DNA of 64,000 nucleotides from Prostheceraeus crozeri (lineage: Eukaryota > Platyhelminthes > Polycladida > Euryleptidae), in the NCBI GenBank assembly GCA_907163375.1, contig CAJQUW010005339.1, positions 124,001 to 188,000 on the forward strand, read 5' to 3'. The notes beneath the pieces are model-generated. The model searched no databases. It saw only the letters and a program-made list of their open reading frames with translations, and was not told where the DNA came from. Both the position numbers and the translations under genes were made by a program. This document shows, piece after piece, positions 27,994 to 61,940 of the stretch (position 1 is the stretch's first letter; the number at the start of each line of letters is the position of its first letter).

Positions 27994-28116
27994 TTTATTT
28001 TACAAAAGCTGGATTTCAGTTCTCGTTTATGTTCAATTTGTAAAAGCAATTGTGACAGTTGTATCGATATCAAAATTTGAAATTTGACCACCATAGATCT
28101 TTCTCCATTCTCTAAA
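26826..28116 (-). mobile_element. Tc1-like element, copy 2, truncated at its 5' end
   Basis: The 3' TIR (TACTCATTGACAAAATTT) is intact at 26,826. The 5' end stops abruptly at about 28,116, inside sequence that in copy 1 lies some 130 bp from the TIR. At that point PIF/Harbinger sequence begins, so the end was probably lost when that element arrived or by a later rearrangement. Confidence 0.8.
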
Positions 28117-28846
28117 GGCCGGTTTACATCCGTCTGTATTTACAATACAAACGATATATTTTCGATATTTTCGTATGGTTCCGTTGCGATTCGATCATCT
28201 TTTGTCACTTCTTCGTGTCCATTTACAAAAGAACTCTTTCAGAGAGCCAGTGTCCCCTGAAGAGCGATTAACTATATTTTTGGTGTATTTATCTACTGGA
28301 TGTTCGCAAAAATGGATCTATCTTTTCGATTCCGCCGCGGTCGATCGACGATCAGCTGCATTCTACGAGAGACGGGGCAAATAATATGGAATGTTATGTC
28401 CAGTAAATATGTTAAATGTCCATCTACTCAGGAAGAATGGTCTGAAATCGCGGATGGATTCTGGCAACATTGGAACTTCCCCCATTGTATAGGGGCCATA
28501 GACGGCAAACATTTCCACGTTCAGAGCCCGAAATCTTCAGGATCTGAATTTTTTGATGATATACACAGATTCAGCGCACTCGTATTAGCAATGTGCGATT
28601 CACGGTATGTGTTTACGTATTTAAATGTTGGCAGTGCTGGGCGTGAAGGTGATGCTGGAGTTTTTAGAAACTCTGACCTTCTCCGCTTTTTGGAAGATAA
28701 CACCATCAACGTCCCACCACCTGAACGAGTGTAAGTGTATAAGTGTCGAGAAAAGTGTATAACTATCGTCTGTCAAGGGCACGGCGTTTGATTGAAAACA
28801 GTTTTGGGGTGTTAGTTACGCGATGGAGGTTGTTTAGTCGCCCGAT
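28117..28846 (+). mobile_element. PIF/Harbinger element, interrupted by E2
   Basis: It begins at aggccggtttacatccgt, a plausible terminal sequence after TAA. It carries an HTH region and a DDE_4-type nuclease and ends where the E2 terminal repeat starts. The remainder of the element was not found on the far side of E2. Confidence 0.6.
28175..28846 (+). pseudogene. PIF/Harbinger transposase (HARBI1-like nuclease), frameshifted and truncated
   Basis: The N-terminal part reads REPVSPEERLTIFLVYLSTG, as in Harbinger nucleases, then shifts frame near 28,310. The main part contains RGRSTISCILRET, CIGAIDGKHF (first catalytic Asp), GREGDAGVFRNS (second Asp) and, after an in-frame stop at about 28,732, [11 protein letters not shown] (Glu). 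The protein would normally continue about 60-80 residues past RWRLFSRPI, but E2 begins there. Confidence 0.85.
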
Positions 28847-29595
28847 AGTAGTAAGCAAAACTCCACTTCTGGACCGCGCAAGATGGCGGCCATCGCTGCG
28901 TCCCCCCCCCCTCTGGCACGGCAGAGTGTCGTGGTCGGCCGCCGTGGTGCTTCGTGTCTGAGTCCCCCCCCCCTCTGGAACGACAGAGGTTGTGGTCTGT
29001 CGTGGTGTGCCGGCCAGGTGGGTCCACGTTCACAACATGTTCGCTGACGTCCCCCCCCCTCTGCAACGACAGAGTGTGAGACTCGGGTGAGTTGGTCCGA
29101 CCGCCTGGTTGACGTGGGCGACCGTCTAGGTTGACGTGGGCGACCGCCAGGATTAGTCTTGAGGCTATAGTGTGTGATGTTTTTGGTGTGTAGCGTCCAA
29201 ACGAAGCATCGGATGAGAAAACGGAGGTCAGATTCGGATTCAGCGTGAAATTCTGCATCGGTAGGGTGAGTTTCAAGGCAATCGGTGAGAAAAAATTTTC
29301 AACATTTTTCGAAAAACGACAGAGTTAGAATTTGGGACGTTTTGGTGTGTAGCGCCCAAACGAAGCATCGGATGAGAAAACGGAGGCCAGATTCGGAATC
29401 TACGTGAAATTTTGGGTTAGGAAGGATGTTTCCAGCGAAATCGCAGAGAAAAAATTTTCGGCTGACTCCCCCCCCTTCCTGGACGGCTTGCTTCCAGTGG
29501 ATGGATTTTGTCGTGCGATAGCTTGTTTGAAAGCTAAGAGTGAGACAAACTCAGTGAAAGAATCGGCTTGTTCGTATCTGTCTTCGTTCAAAAGT
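28847..29595 (+). repeat. Left terminal inverted repeat of E2
   Basis: It matches the complement of about 51,905-52,616, at first almost base for base. Three poly-C tracts of 8-11 bases are each followed by CTCTG and a C-rich hairpin. The left copy has an extra block of about 150 bp near 29,190-29,340, made by an internal duplication of a segment (gtgtagcgyccaaacgaag). The sequence is GC-rich compared with its surroundings. Confidence 0.88.
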
Positions 29596-30925
29596 TAGAG
29601 CGGTTACAAGATTTTAGGTCGGAGCTCGCTCACCTGAAAAATCCTAAGTGTCAGAGTGACTTTGTATGGGTAAAATTTTGAAAATTTTCCAAAGTGTGGA
29701 ATTTCGACCTGGGACCGTCACCAAAACATTTTTCATCAAATTTCACTGACCCCCCCCCCCGACAACAATCTTCTAACTTTGGTTCTAGTGGACGGATTTT
29801 GTCTTACAGCTACTCGTTTGAAAGAAGAGAAAAAACTGCTCGACAACATTTTTTGTTGCGAGTCAATCGGACCAGCCGTTCACAAGTTAGAGCGGTTACA
29901 AGATTTTAGGTCGGAGCTCGCTCACCTGAAAAAATCCTAAGTGTCAGAGTGGCTTTGTATGGGTAAAATTTTGAAAATTTTCCAAAGTGTGGAATTTCGA
30001 CCTGGGACCGCCACCAAAACATTTTTCATCAAATTTCACCGACCCCCCCCCCCCGACAGCAATCTTCTAACTTTGGTTCTAGTGGACGGATTTTGTCTTA
30101 CAGCTACTCGTTTGAAAGAGGAGAAAAAACTGCTCCACAACATTTTTTGTTGCGAGTCAATCGGACCAGCCGTTCACAAGTTAGAGCGGTTACAAGATTT
30201 TAGGTCGGAGCTCGCTCACCTGAAAAAATCCTAAGTGTCAGAGTGGCTTTGTATGGGTAAAATTTTGAAAATTTTCCAAAGTGTGGAATTTCGACCTGGG
30301 TCCGCCACCAAAACATTTTTCATCAAATTTCACTGACCTCCCCCCCCCTGGACAGCTAGCTTCTATCTTGGCTTCTAGTGGACGGATTTTGTCGTGCAAT
30401 AGCTCGTTTGAAAGCTAAGAGTGAGACAAATTCAGTGAAAGAATCGGCTTGTTCCTATCTGTCTTCGTTCACAAGTTAGAGCGGTTACAAGATTTTAGGT
30501 CGGAGCTCGCTCACCTGAAAAAATCCTAAGTGTCAGAGTGGCTTTGTATGGGTAAAATTTTGAAAATTTTCCAAAGTGTGGAATTTCGACCTGGGACCGC
30601 CACCAAAACATTTTTCATCAAATTTCACTGACCTCCCCCCCCCTGGACAGCTAGCTTCTATCTTGGCTTCTAGTGGACGGATTTTGTCGTGCAATAGCTC
30701 GTTTGAAAGCTAAGAGTGAGACAAATTCAGTGAAAGAATCGGCTTGTTCCTATCTGTCTTCGTTCAAAAGTTAGAGCGGTTACAAGATTTTAGGTCGGAG
30801 CTCGCTCACCTGAAAAAATCCTAAGTGTCAGAGTGACTTTGTATGGGTAAAATTTTGAAAATTTTCCAAAGTGTGGAATTTCGACCTGGGACCGTCACCA
30901 AAACATTTTTCATCAAATTTCTCTG
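29594..30925 (+). repeat. 294-bp tandem array next to the left TIR
   Basis: The word gttagagcggttacaaga starts at 29,594, 29,886, 30,180, 30,475 and 30,770, giving four units of 292-295 bp and a partial fifth. Each unit contains a C8-C11 tract and the phrase ggtcggagctcgctcacctg. Units 1, 4 and 5 share one version of the stretch after the C tract and units 2 and 3 another. The right end of E2 lacks the array. Confidence 0.9.
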
Positions 30926-31060
30926 AACGAGGGGGGGGAGGTCAGTGAAATTTGATGAAAAATGTTTTGGTTAAGGTCCCAGGTTGAAATTCGGAAGTTT
31001 TAAATTTTTCAAAATTTTCACCACACTGGAGCTCTCACACTTAGGAATTTTTTCACTTGC
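30926..31060 (-). repeat. Inverted partial copy of the 294-bp unit
   Basis: gaggtcagtgaaatttgatg and the following bases are the reverse complement of the array's last unit, with a G8 tract opposite the C tracts. The junction near 30,925-30,935 therefore forms a large foldback. Confidence 0.85.
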
Positions 31061-35739: not shown

Positions 35740-38700
35740 ATGGTAAGTTGAAAATTTCCTCTCATCTCCCTCAAACGTGTGACTAATAGCATCTTCCTCA
35801 ATTTCAGGCATCAACTTCATCACCAACGCCCTCTCTTCTCGAGGAAAGTTTAGAGTTATTGAGTCAAGGTAGGTTGTAACACTACACTGAGGCTTGAACA
35901 GAGATGAAAGAATGATTTCTCTTTCAGGTGATGTGAGTTCCAGCTCAGGACTCTCGCGGCAAGGCAACGAGTGGGAATGTGCCGACTGCGGACATATGTT
36001 TACAAGGAAGCACAGTCTCCTTCGACACATCAAACAACGTGTGTGTCAACGCAAAGCGGTGTCAATCTCCGGAGGTGAAGTTGATTCTGACGATGACATC
36101 TCCTTTCCTTGCGATTTGTGCCCTCTTTCTTTTGATAGTCACTTTCAGCGATCTTCGCACAGACTTCAACACACGCATGCAAATGATCACTACACCAACG
36201 GTACCTCTACCATCTCCCTCATTAATGTTTCACATAATAATTTAGTACGCGACTACTGCATGGAGTCCAATACTCAAATTGTAGATTTTCCTGAGTGGCT
36301 CCTTCAAAATTCTAACATTATCGAAGCGCTCTTCAATAATTTAGACAATTTTAGAATGAAGGCGCTCATCTACCTTAAACTAAAATATATTAAAATAGAT
36401 TTTCAAACGGGTCAAGTGACGGAGAGAATACAGTTTCATATTCCTTCCTCTTCCGCAACCGAAGTTGTAGACTGCGAGTCTTGGCTAAATTTTCACATTC
36501 AATGTTTAAAATCAAATGTAGATAAATTCAATCAACGCGACAGCGCTCTCATTTTTGATGGTGTGGACTCAGCCATATTCAAAATTTCCCTATTAGAAAG
36601 TCATGCAGCTCGAGGCACATTTAAACTTCCAAAAACGTTGTATAATAAGAAAGCTGTCATCAATGTTGATTGTAAATCACAGTGTTTCAAATATGCAGTC
36701 CTATCCATCCTTCACTATAATGATATCAACGCGCATCGAGATCGCACCTATAGCTATAGACAGTGGGAGGATGAACTAGACTTTGAAGGTTGTGATAGTA
36801 ACAACATGAAAATCAAAGATGTAGAAACGTTCGAAAAACATAATAAGATTAAAATTGTCGTTCACGTGTGGGAGAAGGGGTTGAAGGGTGCCCGCTATAA
36901 TTCACGTTCAACTTGTTATGAACGTGTAGTCAACCTCTTATTAGTAAAACAAGATGATAGCGAGGAATGGCACTACTGTGGTATTCCCAAAATCTCTCGC
37001 TTGTACACTCACTTGGGGCACTCTAAAAGAGGTGAACATTTTGTATGCGACCGCTGCATCCGCTCATTTTGGAGTAAAGATAAATTTGAAACTCACTATG
37101 AATGGTGCAAGCGAGGTAAATTACAAATGGAACGCATGCCCAAAGATAAAATATTTTCACATAGGGATAATGGTGACGAATTAAGTCCCCTGCGTGTCAT
37201 TTACGCAGACATAGAATGCTACATTGATGATATCATCCACAAGCCAGCAGCCATATCCTGCTATGAAGTATGGCATGACCACTTTAGGAATAGACAAAAC
37301 AAAATGCATACTTGGCAAGGTGAAGATTGCATTTCAAAATTTCTAGAATTTCTCGATAAAGCTGCAAAATTTCAACAATCATATGATTCCCAATTGCAGC
37401 GTAAGTCACTACATATGTCAGATGAAGACAAACAAAAATTTGAAAGTTGCACATCCTGTCCTAAATGTCATAAAACGTTTGATGACGATAAAATTAAGAA
37501 AGTGCGTGATCATGATCACATCACTGGTAAATTTAGAAACGCACTCTGCTCCAAATGTAACTTTTCACTTAGGTTGAGACGTCGTGTACTACCCGTCATT
37601 TTTCATAACTTTAAGGGCTATGACAGTCATATGCTCATAAAAGGAGGGTTGAGCCAGATGAAATCGTGGCAGTTTAATGTAATAGCACAAACGAGAGAAA
37701 AATTCATGGCAATGACAGCAAAAGTACCAGTAGATAAAACTAAAGAAAATAAGACAGTCTTCTTCGAAATAAAATTTTTAGATTCATTTCAATTCATGTC
37801 AGCGTCACTAGCTTCTCTCGTTCGTAATCTCAAGTTTCTTCCCCATAGTCAAACTTTGAAGAAACACTATCCAAACTTAACGGATGAAATAATCACTCGC
37901 AAAGGAGTCTTTCCTTATGCGTATTTTAGCTCAATGTCTAAACTAAATGAAACAACCCTTCCTTCCATTGACAAATTCAAAAACGATTTGACGGGTGAAG
38001 ATTGTCCAGTAGAGGACTATGAACATGCTCAAGAGGCATGGTTAAAATTTAATTGTAAAACGTTTGGCGATTATATGATCGCTTACTTAGAATTAGATGT
38101 CATTTTGCTGGCTGATGTCTTTCAGGAGTTTCGACGAGTGGCATTAGAAGAAGACAAATTAGATCCTATCCACTTTGTCAGTCTACCAGCCATGTCCTTT
38201 AAATCAGCCTTTAAAATGACTGGTGAGACCATTCATCTCTTACAAGACCCGGAGATGTATAATATATTTGAGCGCGGAATACGCGGTGGTCTCACATTTG
38301 TAAATAAACATCATATAAAATCTGAAACAGTAGGTGATGATCATATCCACCTAAAGTACTATGACCAAAATAATTTATATGGCAGTTCACTGTCTAAACC
38401 ACTACCTCATTCCGAGTTTAGTTGGTTAAATCAAAATGAGCTTGAGTATTACTCCAACCCTTCAAACATACTGAATATTCCAGATGAAGGTGATTGGGGA
38501 TATTATTTTGAAGTGGATTTGATTTATCCAAATAGTATTAAAAATAAAACTGCTGATTTCCCACTCGCACCTGAATCTGGCGAAGTGACTGAAGATATGT
38601 TTTCACCATTCATGTCACAATTTCATAATAACTTAACAGAGTGTGGACAGCCAAGGTACAAACCATGCCGCAAACTTTTACTCACCCAATATGATAAGAA

Positions 38701-39712
38701 AAATTATCTCGTACACTTCTGCATATTAAAATTCTATTTAGAAATGGGCATGCTTCTAAAGTCAGTTCACCGCATTATCAAATTTAGACAGAAAGCCTTC
38801 CTCAAACCCTACATAGATAGTAACAGTCAAAAACGTGCACTCGCCCAAAATAATTTTGAAAAGGATTTTTATAAATATAAGAATAATAGTCTATTCGGAA
38901 AGACCATGGAGGATGTTAGAAAACGTATGAATTACAAACTAGTCGTTGATGAACAAAAATATCACAAATTGACCTCATCACCTCTTTTCATTGATAGAGA
39001 CATCATCGATGAGGATCTTGTAGGTGTTAAAATGATTAAATCAGAAGTTGAGTTGTGCAAACCCATCTATATTGGGCAAGCCGTTTTAGATTATTCCAAG
39101 CTTGAAATGTATCAACTCTTCTACAAAATATTAAAACCATGCCCTCTCGTAAAAGAGGTTCGCTTGCTGGGTGGTGATACAGATAGTTTCTTTTTAGGAA
39201 TTACCACTCAAAAAGATTTAAATTTTAATGAAGTAGGTAAGTCATTAGAAAAATATTTCGATACATCTAACTACAATCCCACTCATCCACTCTATTCCAT
39301 ACAGAATAAAGCCAAACTTGGTTGTTTTAAGGATGAAACAGCAGGAAAGGAAATAGATGAAATGATTCTCCTCCGTCCTAAAATGTATTCCATGAAACTA
39401 AAAGAATGTGCAGATAGTATTAAGCGTGCTAAAGGTATATCAAAATCCATTGTTCATAAAATGAAACATCGGTCCTATAAGAAGGCCTATAAAAATAAAA
39501 CTATAACGTTTGTCAATATGACAATCTTAAAATCTCAAGTTCATACTGTGAAAACGTACACGTTCAAGAAACGAGCACTTTCAGCATGGGAGGATAAGAG
39601 GTGTTGGATAGGACATAACACATCTCTTCCACATGGACATCCTGACACAAACATACCTCCACCCAAAAGAATAAAACTCACGCTACCACATTCAGGAGAT
39701 GTATTGACATAA
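35740..39712 (+). CDS. Protein-primed family B DNA polymerase, spliced, about 1,282 aa (E2)
   Basis: Replicates the element DNA, primed by a terminal protein as in adenovirus-type pPolB. Exons are inferred as 35,740-35,742 (ATG only), 35,808-35,868 and 35,928-39,712. Both introns are GT-AG with polypyrimidine tracts, and splicing keeps the frame. N-terminal C2H2-type fingers (WECADCGHMF, FPCDLC, later FVCDRC). Polinton block CFKYAVLSILHY. Exo I YADIEC (about residue 449), HNH/endoVII-like block CPKC...VRDHDHITGK (530-568), Exo II HNFKGYDSH, Exo III YLELDVILLAD (about 740), motif A YYDQNNLYGSS (834), motif B NNSLFGKTMEDV (1004), motif C GGDTDSFF (1104). All catalytic acids are present, so it looks functional. 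An unspliced start at 35,894 is possible but less likely. AATAAA follows at 39,871. Confidence 0.93.
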
Positions 39713-39891: not shown

Positions 39892-41412
39892 TCACTTTGT
39901 TTTCCGAAACACTAAAGTTACGAGGGATTTAGTATCTTTCACATGGATACACTCTTGTAAACCATTGGTAATTTTGATAGCAATAGAGGGTATAGTTTGT
40001 TTGACGACGGGATGATAGAAAATAGATTCAAACATCTTCTCGACTATTCCATATGAAGCGTCTTTATCATGAATGAAATCACGTAAAATGTATTCTTTTT
40101 TCTCGCCAACAGAAATAGGTAAAATCAAATCACTTTGAATGTAAAGGTGTTGTTCATGTTTATCAAGTGTCATTGGTGTTTCTATACCAATCGTATGCGC
40201 AGCAGCAAACACAGTTTGTAGCATTGAAAAGCCAAAGAGTTTTTTCAAATTTTTACTCAATTGACATTGAATGTCATCACCCAGTTTCAGAACAACGCGT
40301 TGTTTTTCAATTGAAAACGAAATGTGGTGTGTCTTTACATCATATTTACTTTTCATCACATGCTTCAACTTCTGTTGTATATAAGGATTTACTACATGAA
40401 TGAAGCTTTCAACTGTATGATATAGACGCGGCATTATATTGATAGCAACTTTAGATTCTTCATAAGACTGGTAAATTTTCTTGATGCGATCGCCATAGAT
40501 GTCCACCCACCATTCATCATTAACTGAATCAGCTTTAGTGTGATATTCATGAGAACCATACACCACACCGCTTCCAATAATAGGCGTATAATGTCTTACA
40601 AAATGACGCAAGGTTGGAGAGAAATAAACTGTAAGTTTGTCATTATATTTCTGAATAACCAACTTATTTTTGTCCGCCATAATTTTCTCTCCATACTTCT
40701 TACCCACAGTCTCATTCCATCGTTTTACTAACTCAATAAGTGATAAAGGTTGAACACCACGCTTTTTCAAAATGATGCGTTCTTCGCATTCTACAACATC
40801 TTCATCAAATATTTTAAATCTATAATGAAATTTGTTGATTCGAGTTGAATAAACTTTTTTAACATTTGCAGTAGCAATTGACGTTAGATGTAGTCCATGA
40901 CCAAAACCAAGATGTGGATAGAATTCACTATCCAACCTCAGCGTAAGACCTTTAGTAAAAGAATGAAAGCGGAGGAACTGTCTCCCACTCCAATGATAGA
41001 TAGTAAACTCATAAGCTTTCTGATTTTTATTCTTCATGATGGAAGTATTGCCACTGTTGAATGCCTTAATAATTTTCTCATTCCCAAATGGCTCATAAGA
41101 ATCTGATTTTATCTGAATCCATTCATAGTTCCACTTTCCATCTGATGTTAAATTGTATGGGAACTGAAATGCATTATTCATCGTTATTCCATCATGGGTG
41201 CGAGGAGTCAATATCATTTCTTCCAAATCATTCACATTCTGAATATTGCTATCATAGCAAATACTAGAAACGCCAACTTCCCATTCACCTTCTAAATGCA
41301 GTGGCCGATTTAATTCTACTCGATAGTCTGATGGTTTATTTTTGGGAAATTTATTCATAGAAGCATTACTGGGCAAGTAGATTAGAAACGAGTCCTTATT
41401 TTCACTTTCCAT
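39892..41412 (-). CDS. Minor-capsid/penton-like protein 1, about 506 aa (E2)
   Basis: The N-terminus FLIYLPSNASMNKFPKNKPS followed by LEGEWEVGVSSICYD is a pattern I associate with a common Polinton virion protein. The body is beta-rich, ending VTLVFRKTK. The next gene upstream has the same beginning and end pattern, so the two are paralogues. I start at the Met at 41,412 because similarity begins there and the octamer motif (41,445-41,452) lies 32 bp before it; a start at 41,442 would add ten residues. Assignment to penton or fibre is inference. Confidence 0.55.
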   Translation of the reverse strand: MESENKDSFLIYLPSNASMNKFPKNKPSDYRVELNRPLHLEGEWEVGVSSICYDSNIQNVNDLEEMILTPRTHDGITMNNAFQFPYNLTSDGKWNYEWIQIKSDSYEPFGNEKIIKAFNSGNTSIMKNKNQKAYEFTIYHWSGRQFLRFHSFTKGLTLRLDSEFYPHLGFGHGLHLTSIATANVKKVYSTRINKFHYRFKIFDEDVVECEERIILKKRGVQPLSLIELVKRWNETVGKKYGEKIMADKNKLVIQKYNDKLTVYFSPTLRHFVRHYTPIIGSGVVYGSHEYHTKADSVNDEWWVDIYGDRIKKIYQSYEESKVAINIMPRLYHTVESFIHVVNPYIQQKLKHVMKSKYDVKTHHISFSIEKQRVVLKLGDDIQCQLSKNLKKLFGFSMLQTVFAAAHTIGIETPMTLDKHEQHLYIQSDLILPISVGEKKEYILRDFIHDKDASYGIVEKMFESIFYHPVVKQTIPSIAIKITNGLQECIHVKDTKSLVTLVFRKTK

Positions 41413-41444
41413 ATTATTCACATTGGAAAAATATATTAGCATAC

Positions 41445-41452
41445 TTTTGCAT
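41445..41452 (-). promoter_or_regulatory. Late-type motif ATGCAAAA before minor-capsid-like gene 1
   Basis: Lies 32 bp before the preferred start at 41,412. Same motif family as at 42,871, 43,229, 46,385, 48,986 and 49,391. Confidence 0.4.
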
Positions 41453-42849
41453 TAACTCTTCATTCGGAAATGGAGTGTAATACTTGTCACAGCATCTTTA
41501 TGAAAAGGAATCAACGCACCAGCATCATCATAAATGGCAATATCAATTTGTGGGATGTAGTTTGATTTCAGCTTTGTATAATGCACTTTCTTGAAAGTAT
41601 GCTCAGATAAAATACTGCAGCTTTTTGGCTGGTATGGTATCATTGCTAGCAATGGAGCTTCAACATCTCCCACACGTACATCTTCACCAATATTGGAATA
41701 TATCTGAAAATAGTTAATACGACGCGATAGCGACATGTCTGCGCTAGCTTTGGTTACAGTACCACTTTTAAAGATATTTTGATCAAAACCCAAAATGTCC
41801 ATTAGAGTTTTATCCATAATTAGTTCAATACCTTTTCCATTTATAGTGAGAGACAAAGTACCTTCTTTTTCAGAAAATGAAATATGTTGCTCATTAATCA
41901 CTTCATTTAAATAATCTACAACCAATTTAACCGAAGTAATAATGCGAGGCATCAACACTCTTGTTTCATGTAAGAAACCACCAAAAGGCTCTACACACTT
42001 TCTGTATAAAGATACGGCCCATTCTGTATCAAATTGATTTGACCTTTCACATGGTAAATGTTGCTTATCAGATTTTCCATGAACAGCTGCAGAACGATGT
42101 CGTAAGAACTGATGAAAATCTTTTGAACAAACTAATACTAGATCATCATCATTTAATTTGCTTATTGCAATATGATTAGATGATTTAATATAAGTCAATG
42201 TTGCCACTTGTTTGTCATCAACTCGAAGGAGATAATTAAATTTCTTCAATAATGTTTCAGGAGTCATGTTTGTCTTTCTTGGCTTAATCACAATCTTCTT
42301 CACCAACGTCTTCTCATTTCTTGGAATAAGATCTACATAATAAGCTTCCTCTCGATATATTAACTGTTTATGACCACTTATGTGGTAATTAACGTTAAAA
42401 TTATCATAGCTTGTTAAGGCGCTAGCGAGGTAGCCTAAATCATTTCTTAAACTTGGACTTAAACCAACAATCCAATCTTTCTCAACTACATGATGTACAT
42501 AATTATAATCATCATTGTGCGGAGTAAATTGGACAATATGTTTACACGCTTTATTCAAGAAATCATATATAAACTTTTTACATGATAAGAGATCTTTCTT
42601 TGGCCACTGTGGAATGTATACTCGGCACCCCTTTTCACATTGATAAGCAGCTGTACGCCTCATATTAATAGTCATCACCTCATGATCAAAAGTATAGACA
42701 CAGTTGCTATAAACAAGTTGAGTGACACCCACTTCCCAATTCCCATTTAGCTGTTGTGCATGATCAATGGGAGTAGAAAAGAGTGCGGCTCGATTGCTAG
42801 TAAATCTCTTTGTAGCCGCATTGCTAAGCAAAATATGATAAAACGACAT
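41452..42849 (-). CDS. Minor-capsid/penton-like protein 2, about 465 aa (E2)
   Basis: ATG at 42,849. N-terminal MSFYHILLSNAATKRF and LNGNWEVGVTQLVYSN parallel the sister gene at 39,892-41,412, as do the internal IIVKLGDD/LTINGKGIELIM-type segments and the C-terminal VTSITLHFRMKS. The lengths match. It is probably a second capsid-vertex or fibre-like protein. The gene ends about 9 bp before the upstream end of the sister gene, and its start is 35 bp from the divergent PC4-like gene. Confidence 0.55.
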   Translation of the reverse strand: MSFYHILLSNAATKRFTSNRAALFSTPIDHAQQLNGNWEVGVTQLVYSNCVYTFDHEVMTINMRRTAAYQCEKGCRVYIPQWPKKDLLSCKKFIYDFLNKACKHIVQFTPHNDDYNYVHHVVEKDWIVGLSPSLRNDLGYLASALTSYDNFNVNYHISGHKQLIYREEAYYVDLIPRNEKTLVKKIVIKPRKTNMTPETLLKKFNYLLRVDDKQVATLTYIKSSNHIAISKLNDDDLVLVCSKDFHQFLRHRSAAVHGKSDKQHLPCERSNQFDTEWAVSLYRKCVEPFGGFLHETRVLMPRIITSVKLVVDYLNEVINEQHISFSEKEGTLSLTINGKGIELIMDKTLMDILGFDQNIFKSGTVTKASADMSLSRRINYFQIYSNIGEDVRVGDVEAPLLAMIPYQPKSCSILSEHTFKKVHYTKLKSNYIPQIDIAIYDDAGALIPFHKDAVTSITLHFRMKS

Positions 42850-42870: not shown

Positions 42871-42878
42871 CTTTGCAT
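42871..42878 (-). promoter_or_regulatory. Late-type motif ATGCAAAG in the divergent gap
   Basis: Sits in the 35-bp gap between the - strand start at 42,849 and the + strand start at 42,885, 21 bp from the former. Confidence 0.45.
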
Positions 42879-42884
42879 AACATC

Positions 42885-43241
42885 ATGAAGACTTGGATTT
42901 TGGACTCTCTACAATATATCAGAGTTGATCGTGATGGAAACGTACATTTCAAAAATTCTCATGGTCATACATCAAGAGGAATTACATTAACATGGCGACA
43001 ATTTGTCAACCTCAATGATATCATGAGGGATTTGGAATATTTTGAAACATTAAGATTCATCTCCTTGGGTGATCAAGTTTGGCTTCAACATTACAGAAAT
43101 GAAATTCAAATCTACCATTCTCATTCCGCAAACTGTTTCTCATTTCGCAAATACAATTGGGAGAAGTATAGAAGATACATACATCGCTCCATCATGACAT
43201 TTATTCGTCGTGAGTTCATCGCCCTACTATGCAAATCTTAA
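42885..43241 (+). CDS. PC4-like single-strand DNA-binding protein 1, 118 aa (E2)
   Basis: Two halves can be read as PC4/p15-type units: residues about 10-45 (GNVHFKNSHGHTSRGITLTW then QFVNLNDIMRDL) match the PC4 pattern of a strand, 'KKGISL' and a helix, and residues about 58-105 (ISLGDQVWLQHYRNEIQIYH then a WEKYRRYIHRSI helix) match its first strands. PC4 binds single-stranded DNA and assists TBP-dependent transcription. The assignment rests on pattern only. A second copy follows directly. ATG at 42,885 is used because the frame upstream lacks ATG. Confidence 0.5.
   Translation: MKTWILDSLQYIRVDRDGNVHFKNSHGHTSRGITLTWRQFVNLNDIMRDLEYFETLRFISLGDQVWLQHYRNEIQIYHSHSANCFSFRKYNWEKYRRYIHRSIMTFIRREFIALLCKS
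43229..43236 (+). promoter_or_regulatory. Late-type octamer ATGCAAAT before the second PC4-like gene
   Basis: A perfect ATGCAAAT 27 bp before the ATG at 43,264, inside the end of the previous ORF. Confidence 0.45.
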
Positions 43242-43263: not shown

Positions 43264-43914
43264 ATGAGTTGGAAATTAGATTCCCTACAACGTATTGAAA
43301 CGGATCATGATCGAAACGTCTATTTCAAAGATTCAACTGGAAATGTGAGAAGAGAGTTTGTTTTATCTTATCGTCATTTTCAATCTCTACATCATATCAT
43401 GAAGGACTTGAAATACTTCTATATGAAAAGACATTCACGTATTGGAAATCGCATCTGGCTGCGCGTCAACAATCGGCGAATTCAACTCTATCATTCCCAA
43501 CTTCATACTAACTTCACATTTCATCAAGGTAGTTGGGAAAAGTATAAAAGAAAGGTACATCGCTCAATTTACTCATTCTTTCATCATGAAGCGCCATCGC
43601 TACACCATCGTCAACATTCTCCGTCGCTTCAGACTCTACACCAAAATCGATCTCACAACATTACGCCAACAGCTTCCAAACAGCAAGTATTACCCGGGCC
43701 GTCCTCAAATGTTAGTGGTGAAGATGAACAATTCGCGGAATCTTCAACTCTTCCCAAATGGGACTGTACAGATTCTCGGCGCCCTTTCTCATTCATCGGC
43801 GCAGTCAATGCGCTTAGAGCTACAAAGACTACTACGTCGGATATGGAAGAGGGAGAGGTGTGTGATGTCGAATCTGACTGTGGACAATATGGTGATCTCT
43901 ACTCAATTGAGTGA
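43264..43914 (+). CDS. PC4-like single-strand DNA-binding protein 2, up to 216 aa (E2)
   Basis: The first 105 residues are a clear paralogue of the preceding ORF (LDSLQRIETDHDRNVYFKDS, FQSLHHIMKDLKYF, IGNRIWLRVNNRRIQLYHS, WEKYKRKVHRSIYSF). The following 110 residues are His/Ser/Gln-rich with an acidic end and overlap the TBP-like gene in another frame, so this tail may be read only in part or be accidental. Same strand and spacing as the first copy. Confidence 0.5.
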   Translation: MSWKLDSLQRIETDHDRNVYFKDSTGNVRREFVLSYRHFQSLHHIMKDLKYFYMKRHSRIGNRIWLRVNNRRIQLYHSQLHTNFTFHQGSWEKYKRKVHRSIYSFFHHEAPSLHHRQHSPSLQTLHQNRSHNITPTASKQQVLPGPSSNVSGEDEQFAESSTLPKWDCTDSRRPFSFIGAVNALRATKTTTSDMEEGEVCDVESDCGQYGDLYSIE

Positions 43915-44131
43915 CAGTCTATCATTTTTGAAGATTCGTACCAGCAGTTACAGTTTGTGTTATGAACCCGAACTTTTTCCTGCAGCTCTCATTAGTTGTT
44001 GGTTGCCTGTGCATGTGGCAATCTTTCATAATAGTAAAGTGATCATTACTGGACTAAAATCTCATGAACAAGCAAATATGATCCTAGACTATCTCATTGA
44101 GTATGTACGTACCCAGCGGATTGTAAAATAA
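43586..44131 (+). CDS. TATA-binding-protein-like protein, 181 aa (E2)
   Basis: The length equals the conserved TBP core and both pseudo-symmetric repeats are visible. Repeat 1: TIVNILRRFRLYTKIDLTTL, KYYPGRPQMLVVKM, LQLFPNGTVQILGALSHSSA. Repeat 2: NLTVDNMVISTQ, SLCYEPELFPAALIS, HVAIFHNSKVIITGLKS. CYEPELFP (125-132) is the near-invariant TBP motif. Of the four phenylalanines that wedge into DNA, counterparts are seen at F56, F131 and F147; the fourth position holds a different residue (GRP at 38-40). Expected role: binding promoter DNA and recruiting RNA polymerase to E2 or host promoters. Start at 43,586 (MKRHRY) gives exactly the core; the frame extends upstream to 43,442 within the PC4-like gene. 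Stop overlaps AATAAA. Confidence 0.85.
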   Translation: MKRHRYTIVNILRRFRLYTKIDLTTLRQQLPNSKYYPGRPQMLVVKMNNSRNLQLFPNGTVQILGALSHSSAQSMRLELQRLLRRIWKRERCVMSNLTVDNMVISTQLSDSLSFLKIRTSSYSLCYEPELFPAALISCWLPVHVAIFHNSKVIITGLKSHEQANMILDYLIEYVRTQRIVK

Positions 44132-44165
44132 AAAACAATTTTTCCAACATGATGTTTTTATTTCA
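44128..44165. terminator. Overlapping poly(A) signals of the TBP-like and protease genes
   Basis: AATAAA on the + strand overlaps the TBP-like stop codon. On the - strand AATAAA lies about 44,157-44,162, next to the protease stop, so two convergent genes end within 40 bp. Confidence 0.55.
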
Positions 44166-44619
44166 AATCATGATAGAACTTACAAATCATTTTTTCATTA
44201 GAGGATGGATTACATGAAAAGTTTTGAATAACAGATGCAAATCGAGATACATGTAAACGTTTTAAGATGAAGTACAGTACAAAAGCACCACACGTTGATG
44301 AAAGTGGATGTTGTAGTATGCGTTCATTTCGCTGATATTGACGCGTATGTTTTCTCAACCACTGCTGTGTTGGTATATTTGGAGGTTGAGCAAGAGAGTC
44401 AAATAGTTCACCACGTCGGTCTTCTCCAATAAAGATCGCTTTCCAATGCTCACCGCCTAAATTCTGTGAATGAGTGTTTAGCACAATAAAGATGGGATAG
44501 TGATTTACTGCAGGTGGTAAGGTATCGAGTGAATAGACATTATCGAAAGCTTTCAACGTCGCTTCGTCTGCATTACGCTGCACTTTAGTCTTAATATCGT
44601 CAGCAGTCAACCAACTCAT
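44158..44619 (-). CDS. Adenain-like cysteine protease, 153 aa (E2)
   Basis: Processes virion proteins during maturation in adenoviruses and Polintons. Triad visible: His58 (GGEHWKAIFI), acidic residue Asp74 (GELFDSLAQPP) and Cys110 (SSTCGAFVLYF), with Gln103 (RILQHPL) as oxyanion residue. Length is slightly below adenain but complete. Its ATG shares a base with the stop of the capsid gene (TAATG at 44,619), which suggests coupled translation or compact, overlapping transcripts. Confidence 0.85.
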   Translation of the reverse strand: MSWLTADDIKTKVQRNADEATLKAFDNVYSLDTLPPAVNHYPIFIVLNTHSQNLGGEHWKAIFIGEDRRGELFDSLAQPPNIPTQQWLRKHTRQYQRNERILQHPLSSTCGAFVLYFILKRLHVSRFASVIQNFSCNPSSNEKMICKFYHDLK

Positions 44620-45896
44620 TAACGATTATACTGAAGAATCACGTCACGATACTTTGTAATTTCAATATTTGAATCGAAGACTGCATAAATTAATACATTG
44701 ATCGTCTCAGGTAGTGTTCTTTTGAACGTCAAATCCAAACGAATATTATGAGGCACGTTCGCTTGACGATAGGGTGCACTAATATCGCTGTCAGCAGTCA
44801 AATCAAATGCATAAATAGTATATCCACTCTTAAACTCTTTCATAGTCAGTCCGTTGGTATCATCCGTATTGTAAAAGCCAAAGACATCCATAAAATCAAC
44901 ATAACTGCGCATAAATTGATCCGAAGCAAAATCTGGTTTGTAGGGTGGACCAGGATGACTCACACCATTAACACGTAAAGCAATTTCACTTAACTGATTG
45001 TGTTTAAAATTGAAAGGATTCTTCTTTATATTACCATTAAATGCATCATTTTCAACCATTGCCACCATGAGGAGCTTCGGTGCTTCCGATGGAAAGAGGC
45101 CATCTTTCATGAAACTCTTTTGATCTTTCGGAATTGTAAAGGTGAGAAGCTTTGTATGCTGAACGGGGTAAATGGCATTTTGGCGGTTAAGACCTTCAGC
45201 ATGTCCTCTAATGACACTTGGATTCGGTACTACTCGACGAATGTAAAGTGCAATATCTTCCACATGAATTCTAAAATTGTCAACTTTAGCAAATGCATTC
45301 AGCGCAAATTCAGGCTTATTCAATGTCAGCTTGAGTCGCATGCTGGTATTACAGAGTAAAAACTTTGACTGTCTAAAGAAGTCTAAATTCAGCGGACCAT
45401 ATAGCTGACATACTCTACTATCTTTAATCATAGCAGATCGCTTTACAAAGCCACTGTTTGTTTCAACATCAAATTTTCCTGCTTCATCTCTGTACCATCC
45501 CATGGCTTCCATATGACTTTTTTGTGCTGCTGGATGAAACTGCGATACATGAGTGAAATATGATTTATAGGGATAATCGCTTTGACCACCTTCCACCTGC
45601 TGCTCTCCAATCGTTAGAGAAACATCGCGAAGTAATGTAGTCAATGGTAAATTGTTCAGTCCAACTTTATGCGCATCGTCAATAGCAGTTCCATCTGCTT
45701 GCTGAATTCTAAACCTCAAATCAAGCATCGCATAACTCAAATCTATGTAGTCATCACTACCACCAGGAATAACAAATTCAATGGGGCCAGCATTCTCAGC
45801 TGTTCGAGGATGATAATCTACAATACTTGAACTAAGAATATCTGTCTGTATGGCTTGTTGATCGAACAAACAAAAACCGGAAGTTTTACACTCCAT
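44619..45896 (-). CDS. Major capsid protein (double jelly-roll, hexon-like), 425 aa (E2)
   Basis: Forms the capsid shell in Polinton/adintovirus particles. The N-terminal pattern (VDYHPRTAENAGPIEFVIPG, DDYIDLSYAMLDLRFRI, then TTLLRDVSLTIGEQQVEG and SDYPYKSYFTHVSQFHP) is that of the Polinton capsid family known in databases as F54H12.2-like. The C-terminal jelly roll ends in LPETINVLIYAVFDSNIEIT. Length is typical. It lies between a basic protein and the protease in the late block. Confidence 0.9.
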   Translation of the reverse strand: MECKTSGFCLFDQQAIQTDILSSSIVDYHPRTAENAGPIEFVIPGGSDDYIDLSYAMLDLRFRIQQADGTAIDDAHKVGLNNLPLTTLLRDVSLTIGEQQVEGGQSDYPYKSYFTHVSQFHPAAQKSHMEAMGWYRDEAGKFDVETNSGFVKRSAMIKDSRVCQLYGPLNLDFFRQSKFLLCNTSMRLKLTLNKPEFALNAFAKVDNFRIHVEDIALYIRRVVPNPSVIRGHAEGLNRQNAIYPVQHTKLLTFTIPKDQKSFMKDGLFPSEAPKLLMVAMVENDAFNGNIKKNPFNFKHNQLSEIALRVNGVSHPGPPYKPDFASDQFMRSYVDFMDVFGFYNTDDTNGLTMKEFKSGYTIYAFDLTADSDISAPYRQANVPHNIRLDLTFKRTLPETINVLIYAVFDSNIEITKYRDVILQYNR

Positions 45897-46384: not shown

Positions 46385-46392
46385 CTTTGCAT
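46385..46392 (-). promoter_or_regulatory. Late-type motif ATGCAAAG before the basic core-like gene
   Basis: 30 bp before the ATG at 46,354; extended match ATGCAAAGTTG is shared with the 42,871 site. Confidence 0.45.
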
Positions 46393-46395
46393 GAA

Positions 46396-47610
46396 TCACT
46401 GTCGATCACTTAGATGAAAGATGTCGGCACGACGCATCCAAGAGTTCATACTTGAAGGATAACCAGTCCATTTAACAAGACACCATTCTTCACCTTGCCG
46501 TTTTTTACATCGAATGATTTTCTCTACCAAATATGTTTCACTTTCAGTGACTACCTCAATCTCATCGCGGTAAAAGCTACCCTCAATTTCTTCATTATCG
46601 TAATCTTTCAACTTGTAGGTGGTCGGAGAGTCTTTTTGATTAATCCTTGATACTGTAAATACCTCCTCTGTCCAATTCGGGAGGTACCCTTTAGCAAAAA
46701 CACTTTTCACTTTTGAGATACGAACTTTATCGCCAATTTTCACATCACTTTTCACATGAGTGCGTTTACGTTGGAATGATTCGCGCACTTTATCTACATT
46801 GTTAGCATTTACATCTACTGGTCTGAGTCCAATAGAACGATGGATAGAGTGATTGTAGGCATGGAGTGTATCTTGTAGAACCTTTGTCCAATTTTGTGTC
46901 AAGTTGGCAGTAAAATGTCGCCACAAACGATTTTTTAATGTGCGATTAAAACGTTCAACGAGTGCAGCTTTATAAGCGCTCTTTACACTAAACAACTCAA
47001 TGTCATGCCTCTCAAATAATCTTGTCACATGCTGATTTTCAAACTCTTTTCCTTGATCACTCTGAATTCTTTTTGGAATGCGACCTTCTCGAAAAATTGT
47101 TTGGAATGCTTTTGCTACTCCTTTCCCTTCTTTAGTTTTTAAAGGTTGAGCCCACGCATAACGCGAGAAAATATCAATGACGGTTAAAATAAAATTATTG
47201 CCCGAGTTATGTTTTGAAATGGAGGCAACATCGCACAAATCTGCTTGCCACTGTTCATCGATGTCATGAACAATATAATGGCGGGTGCGGTACTTCTTTT
47301 TCGCTTGTTTGTGGAGTGTATAGGTAGCCTGACCCTTTAACCATCGTTTCACTTGTGATTGTGGAAGACCACTCGCTTTTGATAATTTCTTGATAGATGC
47401 AAATCCTGCCGGATGTTTTACATCATAATAGATTGACTTCAAACGTTCAGTCGATGACGGCTGACTCTTTTTCCTCCTTCTCATCTTTTTTCTTTCTTGC
47501 CTTTCTACATTTACAACAACTGCAGCATTTAGCGGTTTTGCGATCGTGTTCACATTGCTTAGGGGTTTCATTATGAGAGCTGGCGCAGCAAGTGCAAGTG
47601 ACAACGACAT
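46396..47610 (-). CDS. Retroviral-type integrase with chromodomain, 404 aa (E2)
   Basis: Inserts element DNA into the genome. Order: N-terminal helical domain with IYYDVKHPAGFASIKKL, catalytic rve core with Asp124 (WQADLCDV), Asp185 (IQSDQGKEF) and Glu219 (ALVERFNRTLK), an SH3-like C-terminal domain (VKIGDKVRISKVKSVFAKGY, GSFYRDEIE), then a chromodomain (VEKIIRCKKRQGEEWCLVKW, WMRRADI) that may target histone marks. All catalytic residues are present. The first roughly 40 residues overlap a Cys-rich ORF in another frame, so the true start may be Met43 or later. Confidence 0.92.
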   Translation of the reverse strand: MSLSLALAAPALIMKPLSNVNTIAKPLNAAVVVNVERQERKKMRRRKKSQPSSTERLKSIYYDVKHPAGFASIKKLSKASGLPQSQVKRWLKGQATYTLHKQAKKKYRTRHYIVHDIDEQWQADLCDVASISKHNSGNNFILTVIDIFSRYAWAQPLKTKEGKGVAKAFQTIFREGRIPKRIQSDQGKEFENQHVTRLFERHDIELFSVKSAYKAALVERFNRTLKNRLWRHFTANLTQNWTKVLQDTLHAYNHSIHRSIGLRPVDVNANNVDKVRESFQRKRTHVKSDVKIGDKVRISKVKSVFAKGYLPNWTEEVFTVSRINQKDSPTTYKLKDYDNEEIEGSFYRDEIEVVTESETYLVEKIIRCKKRQGEEWCLVKWTGYPSSMNSWMRRADIFHLSDRQ

Positions 47611-47657: not shown

Positions 47658-48350
47658 TTAATAGTCTGAGAACATGTATTTCCTAGGAGGAGCTGTTTTA
47701 CGTTTTCCTTTTACCAGTTTTAGTGGCGATGTAGATCTACGTCGAGTTCTTCCTCTTGTTTGCTTAGTGAGTGTGGGAGGGGATGTAGCAGGTGACGTCT
47801 TAAACCAATTTGTTGGCATTTTCATCGCCTGAAGCATTGGAGTAGTAGCCACTGTTGAATCAAGTTCTTTCAATGTCTCATTATTTAAAGCAAATTTTGG
47901 CACATTATGCTTTTTCAATAGTTTAAGAAAGTATGACCAACCAGGTGGAACATAGCCCTGACGGCGCTTTCTACGTGTCGCATACTGAATCAAGTCTTCA
48001 TAACGTGAAGCATCAATCACTTTATTTTCATCTGTAATGATTTCTCCTCTATCATTTACATTGAGATGGGGTTCAATACTGTTGAAAAGAGATATGGCAT
48101 GTGCGCGAGATGCTAAAGGTGTAGCAGTCGATACAGAGTCACGCATCTTATTCTTCAAGTTTTTCAATTGCTCAACAGTTTCCGATTGTAATAATACAGC
48201 ACGATGTGGATCTTTGATGTGAACATTTTGCTGATAATCTATTTCTTTCCTATACATTTGATTTGCAAGAGGTTGCTTTACTTGCTGCATGGCAGTCAAT
48301 TGTACATATTCATCCTGAGGAATAACAATCATGCGAGAATAAGAACTCAT
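47658..48350 (-). CDS. Unknown virion-type protein, 230 aa (E2)
   Basis: Mostly helical with a central conserved-looking segment (RRQGYVPPGWSYFLKLLKKH, then NVPKFAL) and a Ser/Thr/Arg/Lys-rich, disordered tail (GRTRRRSTSPLKLVKGKRK). Its ATGA start overlaps the ATPase stop by 4 bases. Position among ATPase, integrase and capsid genes suggests a structural or packaging partner. I do not recognise a domain. Confidence 0.7.
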   Translation of the reverse strand: MSSYSRMIVIPQDEYVQLTAMQQVKQPLANQMYRKEIDYQQNVHIKDPHRAVLLQSETVEQLKNLKNKMRDSVSTATPLASRAHAISLFNSIEPHLNVNDRGEIITDENKVIDASRYEDLIQYATRRKRRQGYVPPGWSYFLKLLKKHNVPKFALNNETLKELDSTVATTPMLQAMKMPTNWFKTSPATSPPTLTKQTRGRTRRRSTSPLKLVKGKRKTAPPRKYMFSDY

Positions 48351-49012
48351 AGTTTGTAGATAATCATGGGAGTTTTCAAAATATCACTTCGAAATCTAAA
48401 TTCTTCCGGACACTCTTGCGTAAAGTCAATGAATAAGTAACCGTATGGTTTTTCAGTAGCTGCTTGAAAAATTTCAATTAAGGCTTTTGATCCTCTGGGT
48501 GCAACTTGTCGCGCTAAAATTTCAAATTGACTTTTATCTCGCGGATTCTTGAAAATAGCATAATAGTGTGTATTCAGGTTTCGTGTACGAGCTTCTTTTC
48601 CATCAGGAAACAAATTTTGTGTAATATAGATGATAAAACACCTTTTATGGTGTGCTGCGCGAGTGAACATATCTGTAACATCTTTTGAATTCTTACTTTC
48701 TTTTAATAAATCATCCAATACAACAACATCATTAGACTGAAGTTTATCCACTGGAATAATTCCTTCATGTCGAATAAAGTTGCGACTTTGCAATTCCTGA
48801 AACAGCGACGGTTGATAAATACCATAACACCAAATCACTCGATTGATAGGTTCCTTAAACAACTCCCTTCTTTTATCCAATAAATTCAGCGTGAAAACAG
48901 TTTTACCTGCATGAGATGGACCTGATACAGTCAGAACTTTATCACATTGAAGTCTGAAATCCATTTTATTACTTTGAGACTCAACATTTGCATAATTAAC
49001 GCTTAGAGCCAA
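48347..49012 (-). CDS. FtsK/A32-type DNA packaging ATPase, 221 aa (E2)
   Basis: Walker A GPSHAGKT (residues 31-38), Walker B VVVLDDLL (97-103) and sensor IIYITQN (127-133) identify the HerA/FtsK packaging ATPase of Polintons, which drives genome packaging. Length is typical. The ORF can start at 49,012 or at Met17 (48,964); the octamer ATGCAAAT at 48,986-48,993 lies 21 bp before the latter, which I slightly favour. The upstream basic gene stops at 48,996. Confidence 0.88.
   Translation of the reverse strand: MALSVNYANVESQSNKMDFRLQCDKVLTVSGPSHAGKTVFTLNLLDKRRELFKEPINRVIWCYGIYQPSLFQELQSRNFIRHEGIIPVDKLQSNDVVVLDDLLKESKNSKDVTDMFTRAAHHKRCFIIYITQNLFPDGKEARTRNLNTHYYAIFKNPRDKSQFEILARQVAPRGSKALIEIFQAATEKPYGYLFIDFTQECPEEFRFRSDILKTPMIIYKL
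48986..48993 (-). promoter_or_regulatory. Late-type octamer ATGCAAAT before the ATPase (second start)
   Basis: Within the first codons of the long ATPase frame, 21 bp before the Met at 48,964. Confidence 0.4.
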
Positions 49013-49390: not shown

Positions 49391-49398
49391 ATTTGCAT
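49391..49398 (-). promoter_or_regulatory. Late-type octamer ATGCAAAT before the second basic gene
   Basis: A perfect ATGCAAAT, 38 bp before the ATG at 49,352. Confidence 0.45.
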
Positions 49399-51904: not shown

Positions 51905-52616
51905 AAGTTGATTCCAAATCTGGCATCCGTTTACCAATCCGATAGTTCGTTTTGAAGCTACAGCCCAAAACGTCCCAAATTCTAACTCTGTCGTTTTTCA
52001 CCAATGTCCCAAAATCTTAAATGGCGTCTCACATGTAAACGAAGGCAGATACGAACAAGCCGATTCTTTCACTGAATTTGTCTCACTCTTAGCTTTCAAA
52101 CGAGCTATCGCACGACAAAATCCGTCCACTGGAAGCAAGCTGTCCAGGGGGGGGGACGTCAGCCGAAAATTTTTTCTCTCCGATTTCGCTGGAAACATCC
52201 TTCCTAACCCAAAATTTCACGTAGATTCCGAATCTGGCCTCCGTTTTCTCATCCGATGCTTCGTTTGGACGCTACACACCAAAAACATCACACACTATAG
52301 CCTCAAGACTAATCCTGGCGGTCGCCCACGTCAACCTAGACGGTCGCCCACGTCAACCAGGCGGTCGGACCAACTCACCCGAGTCTCACACTCTGTCGTT
52401 GCAGAGGGGGGGGGACGTCAGCGAACATGTTGTGAACGTGGACCCACCTGGCCGGCACACCACGACAGACCACAACCTCTGTCGTTCCAGAGGGGGGGGG
52501 ACTCAGACACGAAGCACCACGGCGGCCGACCACGACACTCTGCCGTGCCAGAGGGGGGGGGACGCAGCGGTGGCCGCCATCTTGCGCGGTCCAGAAGTGG
52601 AGTTTTGCTTACTACT
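51905..52616 (-). repeat. Right terminal inverted repeat of E2
   Basis: Complement of 28,847-29,595 with three G8-G9 tracts. It lacks the extra 150-bp block and the 294-bp array of the left end. Similarity fades near 51,905-52,010. Ends ...GGAGTTTTGCTTACTACT. Confidence 0.88.
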
Positions 52617-57465: not shown

Positions 57466-58757
57466 TTAATTGTTACCATCACAACCATTTTTTAATAATA
57501 TCTTCAAGAATTGTGCACTTAAAATCGAAACAGAAAATTGCGATATAAATGTCTCCAATCTCCAGAAAGTTAAATTGTGGTTGTCAACTCCAAATTCTGT
57601 AACAAAAGATTTCGATAAGAAATCATATCCTTCCAATAAAATTTGATTATTGGTATCATCGAATCTTATTGGGATCAATTGGATATTTCGGGTTTGGAAT
57701 TTAAATGAAACTTGTAAACTTCGAATTGTAGTTTAATATGAAAAAAAATATTTATTTGTTCTTTATTCAAAACTTGGAGAATTATTTCTTTGAAATGTTA
57801 AGTAATAAATATCTTGGAGTATTCGCAGAGTTCTAGTAAAAATGCAGTTAGTTAAAATCTTTTTTGTTCGGAAAAGTTACCTGAACTTAGCAGTACGCTC
57901 TTATAGAAAAATTTACTGGAATTGGGTTTGTTAGTAAATTTAATCCTTTTTTTGCAATAGCTGTTTTCAACCTCTAAACTAGGAGTTAATATGCGTAATC
58001 CACCATTCAAGATCTATCAATTTTTTAAATATGCTTTTTTCCCAGTCTTTACCAAAAAAGATTAATTCATTATTTGCTGTACGATGAATTATTAATTTAA
58101 AATTTTAATTGATAGATATTTTATCCTAATCTAAATATCGAATAATGGAGAAAATGACCAATTAACTGTCTGTTTACTTTTCTTGTTAAATTCACGTCTT
58201 TCTTTATATGCTTCATTATTTGTTTTATTTAAATGTTTTGCAATATTTTCTACATCTTTCGCAATTCCTGCTGCATCTGTTCCAGCGTGAGTTAAATCAT
58301 CAACAATTATACCATCATTAGTATCAGGAAACCAACCTTCGATTTCATACTTTTTATTATTTTCACCAATTGTTACAAATCTAAGCATTGTATCAATTAC
58401 ACCTGGAGAATCACTTATTGTTTCAATATTTTGAGTCTGCAACAAATCTAAACGCATTTTTGTGTGTAAATAATCTTGGAAAAGAAATTATTCTCTAGTG
58501 CAATATTATCGGGTATCTGGTAATGGTGTTGTAAAATTAGCATCACTATATAAAGAATATTCACAGTGTAAAAATGAATCAGGTAAATATAAATAACTCT
58601 GCTGATTATCAACTTCAAAGATTAAATCTCCTCCAGTATTTACTCTACTGGAAGATCCGGGATTCATAGCAATTCTTATATAGTCATTCTTTTTTTGATT
58701 AGAACTGACGAACGGAGGATCGTCTAATCTAAATTTATTTTCGATAAGCGAAGACAT
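57466..58757 (-). pseudogene. Major capsid protein remnant (E3)
   Basis: From ATG at 58,757 the frames give NDYIRIAMNPGSSSRVNTGG, QSYLYLPDSFLHCEYSLY, then in a shifted frame RLDLLQTQNIETISDSPGVI, DTMLRFVT and KQTVNWSFSPLFDI, in the order expected for the N-terminal jelly roll of the second Polinton capsid family. Further down, LEWWITHINPS and the 57,466-57,678 ORF appear to be C-terminal pieces. Frameshifts near 58,480 and 58,130 and several stops inactivate it. Confidence 0.6.
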
Positions 58758-58958
58758 TTTTATAAAAAATAATTTGACTTTTTGTTTTTCTCACAGATAG
58801 AAAAAAAAATTTTACTAAAATATAATTTTAGAATTTTGCTAGACCAGCTCCGCTACAGCTTTGCTGGTTAGACCGAAGGTTGCTGCTCACGCCATTTCCT
58901 CTTATTTCTTCAATTGTTTTTTTTATTATTTTTATTTTTCATTATGTTTACTATTAGA

Positions 58959-58968
58959 CGGAGCTCCG
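58959..58968. repeat. GC-rich hairpin (CGGAGCTCCG) in an AT-rich gap
   Basis: It lies between the capsid remnant and the coiled-coil gene. A second hairpin-like stretch, CCAGC...GCTGG, is at about 58,845-58,866. They belong to the scattered GC hairpins of E3. Confidence 0.5.
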
Positions 58969-59094
58969 CTCCTCAAGGTTTTCCTGCCCCCAACAGCTAT
59001 GTTAGCAATTTTGTTTTTTGTGTCCTCTGAAAGGGGATTTTTTTTTAAATTTTTTAGTTCTTCAGAATCATTTCTAAGTTACGGAATAGCTTTG

Positions 59095-60370: not shown

Positions 60371-60381
60371 TTTTAAAACAA

Positions 60382-60475
60382 TAAAAAAATAAAATTTTTT
60401 CTAATAAAAATAAAAAAATAAAATTTTTTCTAATAAAAATAAAAAAATAAATTTTTTTCTAATAAAAATAAAAAA
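60382..60475. repeat. Short tandem repeat, about 28-bp AT-only unit
   Basis: ataaaattttttctaataaa recurs three to four times between the divergent starts of the coiled-coil gene and the next + strand ORF. Confidence 0.7.
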
Positions 60476-61938: not shown

Positions 61939-61940
61939 TA

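Follow-up and report, generated by a model that had tools for sequence, protein, structure and literature searches.

We found that a Polinton in the genome of the polyclad flatworm Prostheceraeus crozeri encodes a complete TATA-binding protein (TBP) frame, which supports the original prediction of a Polinton with its own TBP-like factor; none of the three refuting outcomes named with that prediction was observed. The gene is an integral part of the element in many copies and is under purifying selection between diverged copies. It lies at 43586..44131, on the plus strand of the window (the whole 64,000-nucleotide stretch of DNA analyzed here), within an element that we call E2. The 181-codon frame contains both pseudo-repeats, as proposed: a profile search gave a strong match to PF00352 in two stretches (E 7.6e-21; score 74.2 bits, cut-off 22.9), and the two tandem TBP lobes span the 181-aa protein. 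Likeness to TBP structures was borne out by a sequence match to solved TBPs (best 2z8u, E 2.8e-14) and by a fold match. The motifs picked out earlier were all in place, with YEPELFP at residues 126-132, the KVIITG strand at residues 151-156, and three of the four wedge phenylalanines (F56, F131 and F147), the first being P40. An AATAAA signal (44127..44132, plus strand) overlaps the TBP stop codon, also as predicted. The open frame measures 234 codons in 149 of the 150 copies scored, the 181-aa core being counted from the first ATG. The sequence TATAAAAG (43543..43550, plus strand) is located 43 nt upstream of the TBP start codon, within the coding sequence of the upstream gene, and this 8-mer was identical in four of five diverged loci. 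Our first protein search gave 60 TBP relatives, with 31-78% identity in alignment A1. TBP had no match in PHROGs, queries with the TBP (P0001) and alignment A1 found no relatives in viral_contigs, and alignment A1 found none in genome_contigs.

The bounds of E2 in the window, 28847 and 52616, were set by its inverted repeats, and the TBP ORF lies between them. The left terminal inverted repeat (28847..29300, plus strand) starts with AGTAGTAAGC, and the right one (52165..52616, minus strand) shares 95.6% identity with it. The outer 6 bp of this copy are CCCGAT vs. TATACA, and a target duplication was not found at the E2 flanks. The element encodes an integrase (46396..47610, minus strand) with an rve core (E 1.8e-10) and a chromodomain (E 6.6e-7), both over the Pfam cut-off. 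Matches under the cut-off were obtained for an adenain/Ulp1-like protease (44158..44619, minus strand; Pfam C48, 0.0012) and an A32-type packaging ATPase (48347..48964, minus strand; Pfam, 0.022). The product of 44619..45896 (minus strand) is presumably the major capsid protein; it had no Pfam match, no PDB sequence match and no relatives in viral_contigs. Likewise, we take the frame at 35912..39712 (plus strand) to be a PolB-like gene by its PolB motifs. It is similar (up to 2.1e-31) to PolB-type pieces that belong to a second element in the window, Pfam PolB models and PDB polymerases gave no match, and Pfam found in it an endonuclease VII domain (PF02945, E 7.5e-7, residues 493-551) and weak zinc fingers, including a weak N-terminal C2H2 finger. 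Two paralogues within 39892..42849, pen1 (41452-42849, minus strand) and pen2 (39892-41442, minus strand), share 23% identity over 524 aligned columns; both are presumed capsid-type genes, and their names are guesses. The gene for pX, a basic protein of 151 aa, is followed by the presumed capsid and protease genes with inter-frame gaps of no more than 2 nt. Among the E2 frames scanned no RNA polymerase was recognized, suggesting that the element presumably relies on that of the host.

Several other features of the window were observed beside these. At 29487-30926 a ~295-bp unit of the left inverted repeat recurs in tandem about five times (pair offset ~295 bp), and the right inverted repeat in the window has no matching run of such units. 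A 144-aa frame resembling a Harbinger-type transposase (28300-28734) ends ~110 nt short of the left inverted repeat, as though E2 had inserted into or next to it. Two copies of what we take to be a Tc1-like transposase (22115-23035 and 27194-28114) lie in opposite orientation with 99.1% identity over 921 bp, and the second encodes an open frame of 394 aa. Parts of two other decayed PolB-bearing elements are found at 1305-8060 and 58131-63061, the latter presumed to be PolB-bearing by its motifs only; neither part contains a second TBP within the window.

The first genome search scored the 150 best-matching places, which sets a lower bound on copy number and does not bear on broken copies. In all 150 scored copies the TBP frame was open and the protein identical, although these best-scoring matches favor intact genes, and thus no claim of selection was drawn from that list. 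Eight of the 150 copies showed 99.2-99.7% DNA identity over 3.5 kb around the TBP gene. We sought the ends of the element in 10 further copies from the list and found both tips in five; the pieces retrieved for the other five contained no tip, a contig end having truncated two of them. The five bounded copies were 22.9-25.9 kb long, all with TBP inside, and four of them had a perfect 6-bp target duplication (GATTTC, GAAGTT, GATACT and CGCCCA), the flanks of the C788 copy being different (TTCATC/TCTATC). A genome search with the human TBP core gave 147 further places among the matches listed, whose identity to human TBP was 24-28%. By a count by eye, 14 carry one stop in the match, and some of the 147 may coincide with places on the 150-copy list.

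Selection was judged from five diverged loci (L036-L040) with 85.5-87.1% DNA identity to the TBP gene of the window. The gene order pen1, pc4a, pc4b, TBP, protease and capsid-type gene was common to all five, several of the neighbor genes matching in pieces only, and the TBP frame was open in four. In these four loci, those without a stop, dN/dS relative to the window TBP was 0.23-0.33 in a sample that favors intact genes, having surfaced through a well-scoring TBP; these values indicate that the gene has been maintained under selection over this divergence. The claim that TBP is cargo of the element and not a flanking host gene therefore holds, given its location inside the inverted repeats and in the bounded copies, and its constant neighbors in all five diverged loci.

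We then compared the residues with which TBP contacts DNA across the family. A profile search gave 388 relatives at E <=1e-5, of which the best 120 were taken; the family set comprised 134 different relatives among the matches listed, or 135 aligned rows with the window TBP. Only four rows carried sourced names, each TBP or TFIID and none viral. Contact positions were those of the yeast list in Table 1 of PMC12529657. In the C-lobe, N257 (yeast N159), V259 (V161), P289 (P191) and F305 (F207) were retained in 135/135 rows, and F288 (F190) and T313 (T215) in 134/135; the exceptions across the family were yeast V213 and L205, which are mostly Ile and mostly Ala, respectively. In the N-lobe, yeast N69 was retained in all 112 rows with a letter there and F116 in 135/135, so that both groove asparagines and three of the four wedge phenylalanines are kept. 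The change to Pro in the GRP of repeat 1, noted in the original prediction, is present but is not peculiar to the window copy: yeast F99, the first wedge phenylalanine, is replaced by Pro in 129 of 132 rows with a letter at that position, the window TBP included. Three other N-lobe contact residues are altered family-wide or nearly so, A101 to Met (135/135), V122 to Gln (135/135) and T124 to Leu (118/135), and V71 is Met in most rows. When TBP is bound to DNA, each lobe reads one half of the box, the 3' half falling to the N-lobe and the 5' half to the C-lobe; a change of specificity would thus be expected in the 3' half for the remodeled N-lobe. An altered DNA specificity of the element TBP, with the N-lobe as the altered lobe, is plausible from these residues.

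The surfaces for general transcription factors were conserved unevenly. Lys occupies the position of human E191 in 111/132 family rows; we take E191 to be a TFIIA contact, so that an altered TFIIA contact is suggested and the fit to the host complex is not assured. In the acidic stirrup, E284 was found in 132/135 rows (Asp in the other three) and E286 in 135/135, and these two glutamates contact TFIIB according to PMC7221094.

Immediately upstream of TBP lie two related genes. The product of pc4a (42885..43241, plus strand, 118 aa) is predicted to have a PUR-alpha/PC4-like fold, as judged with one aligner and one model; a Foldseek search with this model returned nothing at E <=0.001. Naming pc4a and pc4b as PC4 by sequence was rejected, as it had no support in Pfam and the fold comparison favors PUR-alpha. 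pc4b (43264..43914, plus strand) is a paralogue of pc4a over its first ~113 aa (49/112 aa identical) and overlaps the TBP gene in another frame at 43588-43914. Between the window and eight copies, which were chosen for an identical TBP, three codons differ in the overlap; all these changes are synonymous for TBP and non-synonymous for pc4b.

A short sequence, ATGCAAA, is conserved upstream of several genes of E2. It was first spotted by eye, and all 6-, 7- and 8-mers were then scored within 60 nt upstream of the first ATG in each of 18 E2 frames. ATGCAAA was the top 7-mer, found before six of the 18 genes (expected 0.18), which accounts for six of its nine occurrences in the element. Of 1000 random sets of 18 stretches, none equaled the score for 7-mers and two did for 6-mers. 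Five boxes lie on the minus strand: before pen2 (41446..41452; 10 nt upstream of the frame's first ATG and 40 nt upstream of M11), pen1 (42872..42878; 29 nt before the first ATG), pX (46386..46392; 38 nt before the start), the ATPase (48987..48993; 29 nt upstream of the frame's first ATG) and a 118-aa protein (49392..49398; 46 nt before the start). The sixth, before pc4b (43229..43235, plus strand), lies 35 nt before the start in the last codons of pc4a, and the codons at this site could spell the box in only one of four database relatives of pc4a. We infer that pen2 starts at M11 from its likeness to pen1. The distances from box to start are then 29, 29, 35, 38, 40 and 46 nt in E2 and 29-52 nt in the diverged loci, a minimum of 29 nt that depends on M11, as the first ATG of pen2 gives 10 nt. 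The remaining 12 genes, including those for the presumed capsid, protease, integrase and PolB, had no box in the 60 nt before the ATG, and none of the 11 ORF starts checked in the window's two other elements, both decayed, had it within 70 nt upstream.

In the diverged loci the box was retained in 16 of 19 site instances and lost in three. Conserved letters amounted to 129/133 in the box vs. 360/533 in the spacer to the ATG, and a Fisher value on this comparison overstates the evidence because the diverged loci are related to each other. The 19 instances exclude L044, which did not match the window, as well as rows whose pieces failed to cover or align with the site in question: L042 and L045 (ATPase and 118-aa protein), L050 (pX) and L046 (pen2). 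When restored, the rows other than L044 gave 14/24, 24/32, 25/32 and 24/32 letters.

Weighing these data, we lean slightly towards a mechanism in which the element encodes a TBP of its own lineage, produced early from a TATA box, that would drive the capsid-type and packaging genes with host Pol II via TFIIB. The TBP would be made early from the host-type TATA box (TATAAAAG) in the preceding gene, would bind element promoters with its largely normal C-lobe and altered N-lobe, and would then bend the DNA. The retained YEPELF stirrup would recruit host TFIIB and RNA polymerase II, and the capsid-type and packaging genes, in units with the conserved ATGCAAA box (TATGCAAA), would be driven by the TBP. 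The PUR/PC4-like proteins might assist at melted promoters or replicating ends, where they would bind single-stranded DNA. DNA binding by the TBP, the match between box and protein, and the order of early and late expression are what we infer here from sequence. More tentatively, and with less confidence than in the mechanism as a whole, we suggest that the remodeled TBP (a near-normal C-lobe and an N-lobe with Pro, Met, Gln and Leu) and the box TATGCAAA, ~30 nt before the start sites of capsid-type and packaging genes, could form a private two-part core-promoter system. If true, this would amount to a minimal switch for late genes, one that relies on host Pol II and is present in more than 100 copies within one genome.

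The box could instead be real and independent of the element TBP, serving as a POU-octamer site, an initiator or a translation stop/re-start signal in tightly packed genes. We give this explanation serious weight, marginally more than the two-part system; it concerns the box alone and is compatible with a role of the TBP in transcription. ATGCAAA is not a TATA box and equals the core of the POU octamer, so that a host factor could read it, and four of the six boxes overlap the stop codon of the upstream gene or fall no more than 5 nt after it. However, no same-strand gene ends near the pen1 box, the nearest upstream, the protease, ending 1.3 kb away. Moreover, if pen2 starts at M11, the spacing of 29-46 nt in E2 and 29-52 nt in the diverged loci is what would be required of a TATA-like element whose start site lies ~30 nt downstream and leaves a very short leader.

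Two other roles for the TBP are, in our judgment, unlikely to a similar degree. It might sabotage or compete with the host, occupying host TATA boxes or TFIIB and damping host transcription without itself selecting promoters. A role of this kind would require no box in the element, and the TFIIB-contact glutamates are retained while the N-lobe, the usual docking site of regulators according to PMC7221094, is remodeled; but such a role leaves the conserved box before the capsid-type and packaging units unexplained, and the C-lobe DNA contacts are mostly retained. The TBP might also be an architectural DNA-bender for replication, integration or packaging, acting with the PUR/PC4-like proteins as presumed single-strand binders, and not a transcription factor. 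The predicted fold of the adjoining pc4a is typical of single-strand nucleic-acid binders and the element encodes an integrase; however, the near-invariance of E284 and E286 is hard to explain without transcription.

The host has its own TBP gene. With the human TBP core (identical to 1nvp_A) as the query, we found it on contig C9306 as a pair of exons separated by ~15 kb, with tblastn identities to human TBP of 86% and 91%. We also observed a host TRF-like gene (L034, G000:C3829:151573-151923), ~42% identical to human TBP, whose stirrup is altered to YEPELHSG. When 135 element-type and three cellular proteins were placed in a tree, a very long branch with 100/100 support split the groups; with only three outgroup rows, one of them long and of odd composition, the tree shows distance and not origin. 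The idea that the element recently captured this ORF from the host, as a copy or pseudogene of the host TBP, has nothing in its favor beyond family membership and practically no probability. It is refuted by the low identity of the element protein to human TBP (40/176 aligned residues vs. 86% and 91% in the host exons), the derived N-lobe common to the 134 listed relatives, and the long branch to the three cellular TBPs.

E2 resembles Polinton/Maverick and adintovirus elements in its inverted repeats, which begin with AG, in its integrase, in its protease and ATPase (weaker matches), and in the 6-bp target duplications of four of the five bounded copies. It differs from them in carrying a TBP and a pair of PUR/PC4-like genes; neither is described for Polintons in the open-licence papers found and, to our knowledge, classic Polinton gene lists contain neither. 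The earlier remark that no TBP is known in Mavericks/Polintons agrees with the open-licence literature searched, in which none was found among the matches listed, and with a word search of a few Polinton/PLV papers, where the terms were missing or, in one, occurred only as TATA within an author's name. An element-encoded general transcription factor with a candidate box would make capsid-gene transcription in Polintons, and whether it follows a virus-like early/late program, directly testable, and would offer a natural experiment in which TBP specificity is altered lobe by lobe. Compared with cellular TBP (yeast or human core, e.g. 7o4i_O and 1cdw_A; ~20-23% identity), the element family differs at F99, A101, V122 and T124 and in the Lys for human E191.

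RNA polymerases are encoded by many giant viruses, but none was recognized in the scanned frames of E2. TBPs of larger viruses (mimivirus, mirusvirus, nimavirus, poxvirus, ASFV and herpesvirus) are already in the literature, and none in a Polinton appeared among the matches listed from the open-licence literature searched. TBPs are described in mirusviruses (PMC10132985) and nimaviruses, e.g. wsv303 (PMC10871703), and in PMC10675990 TATA-binding proteins are placed in elements of putative mirusvirus origin and not in its PLVs. The element TBP shares its fold with these proteins of large DNA viruses: the best Foldseek match in BFVD was unnamed (E 5.8e-11) and the best named one was from Heterosigma akashiwo virus 01 (E 1.5e-10), yet identity to the best seven BFVD matches was only 11-20%. 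The precedent for the mechanism that we favor is the herpesvirus vTBP (KSHV ORF24 and homologues), which, according to PMC12529657, works with host Pol II on non-canonical late promoters with TATTWAA. On the same source, ORF24 is likewise a virus-type TBP with a polar residue at yeast V122 (Asn, where the element has Gln), whereas it keeps F99 and uses TATTWAA where the element has Pro and the candidate box TATGCAAA, and it has further N-terminal (Rpb1-binding) and C-terminal (DNA-binding) domains and partner proteins, the element TBP being the 181-aa core only. Our finding suggests that TBP-based takeover of Pol II may occur in small virus-like elements too, and not in large viruses alone.
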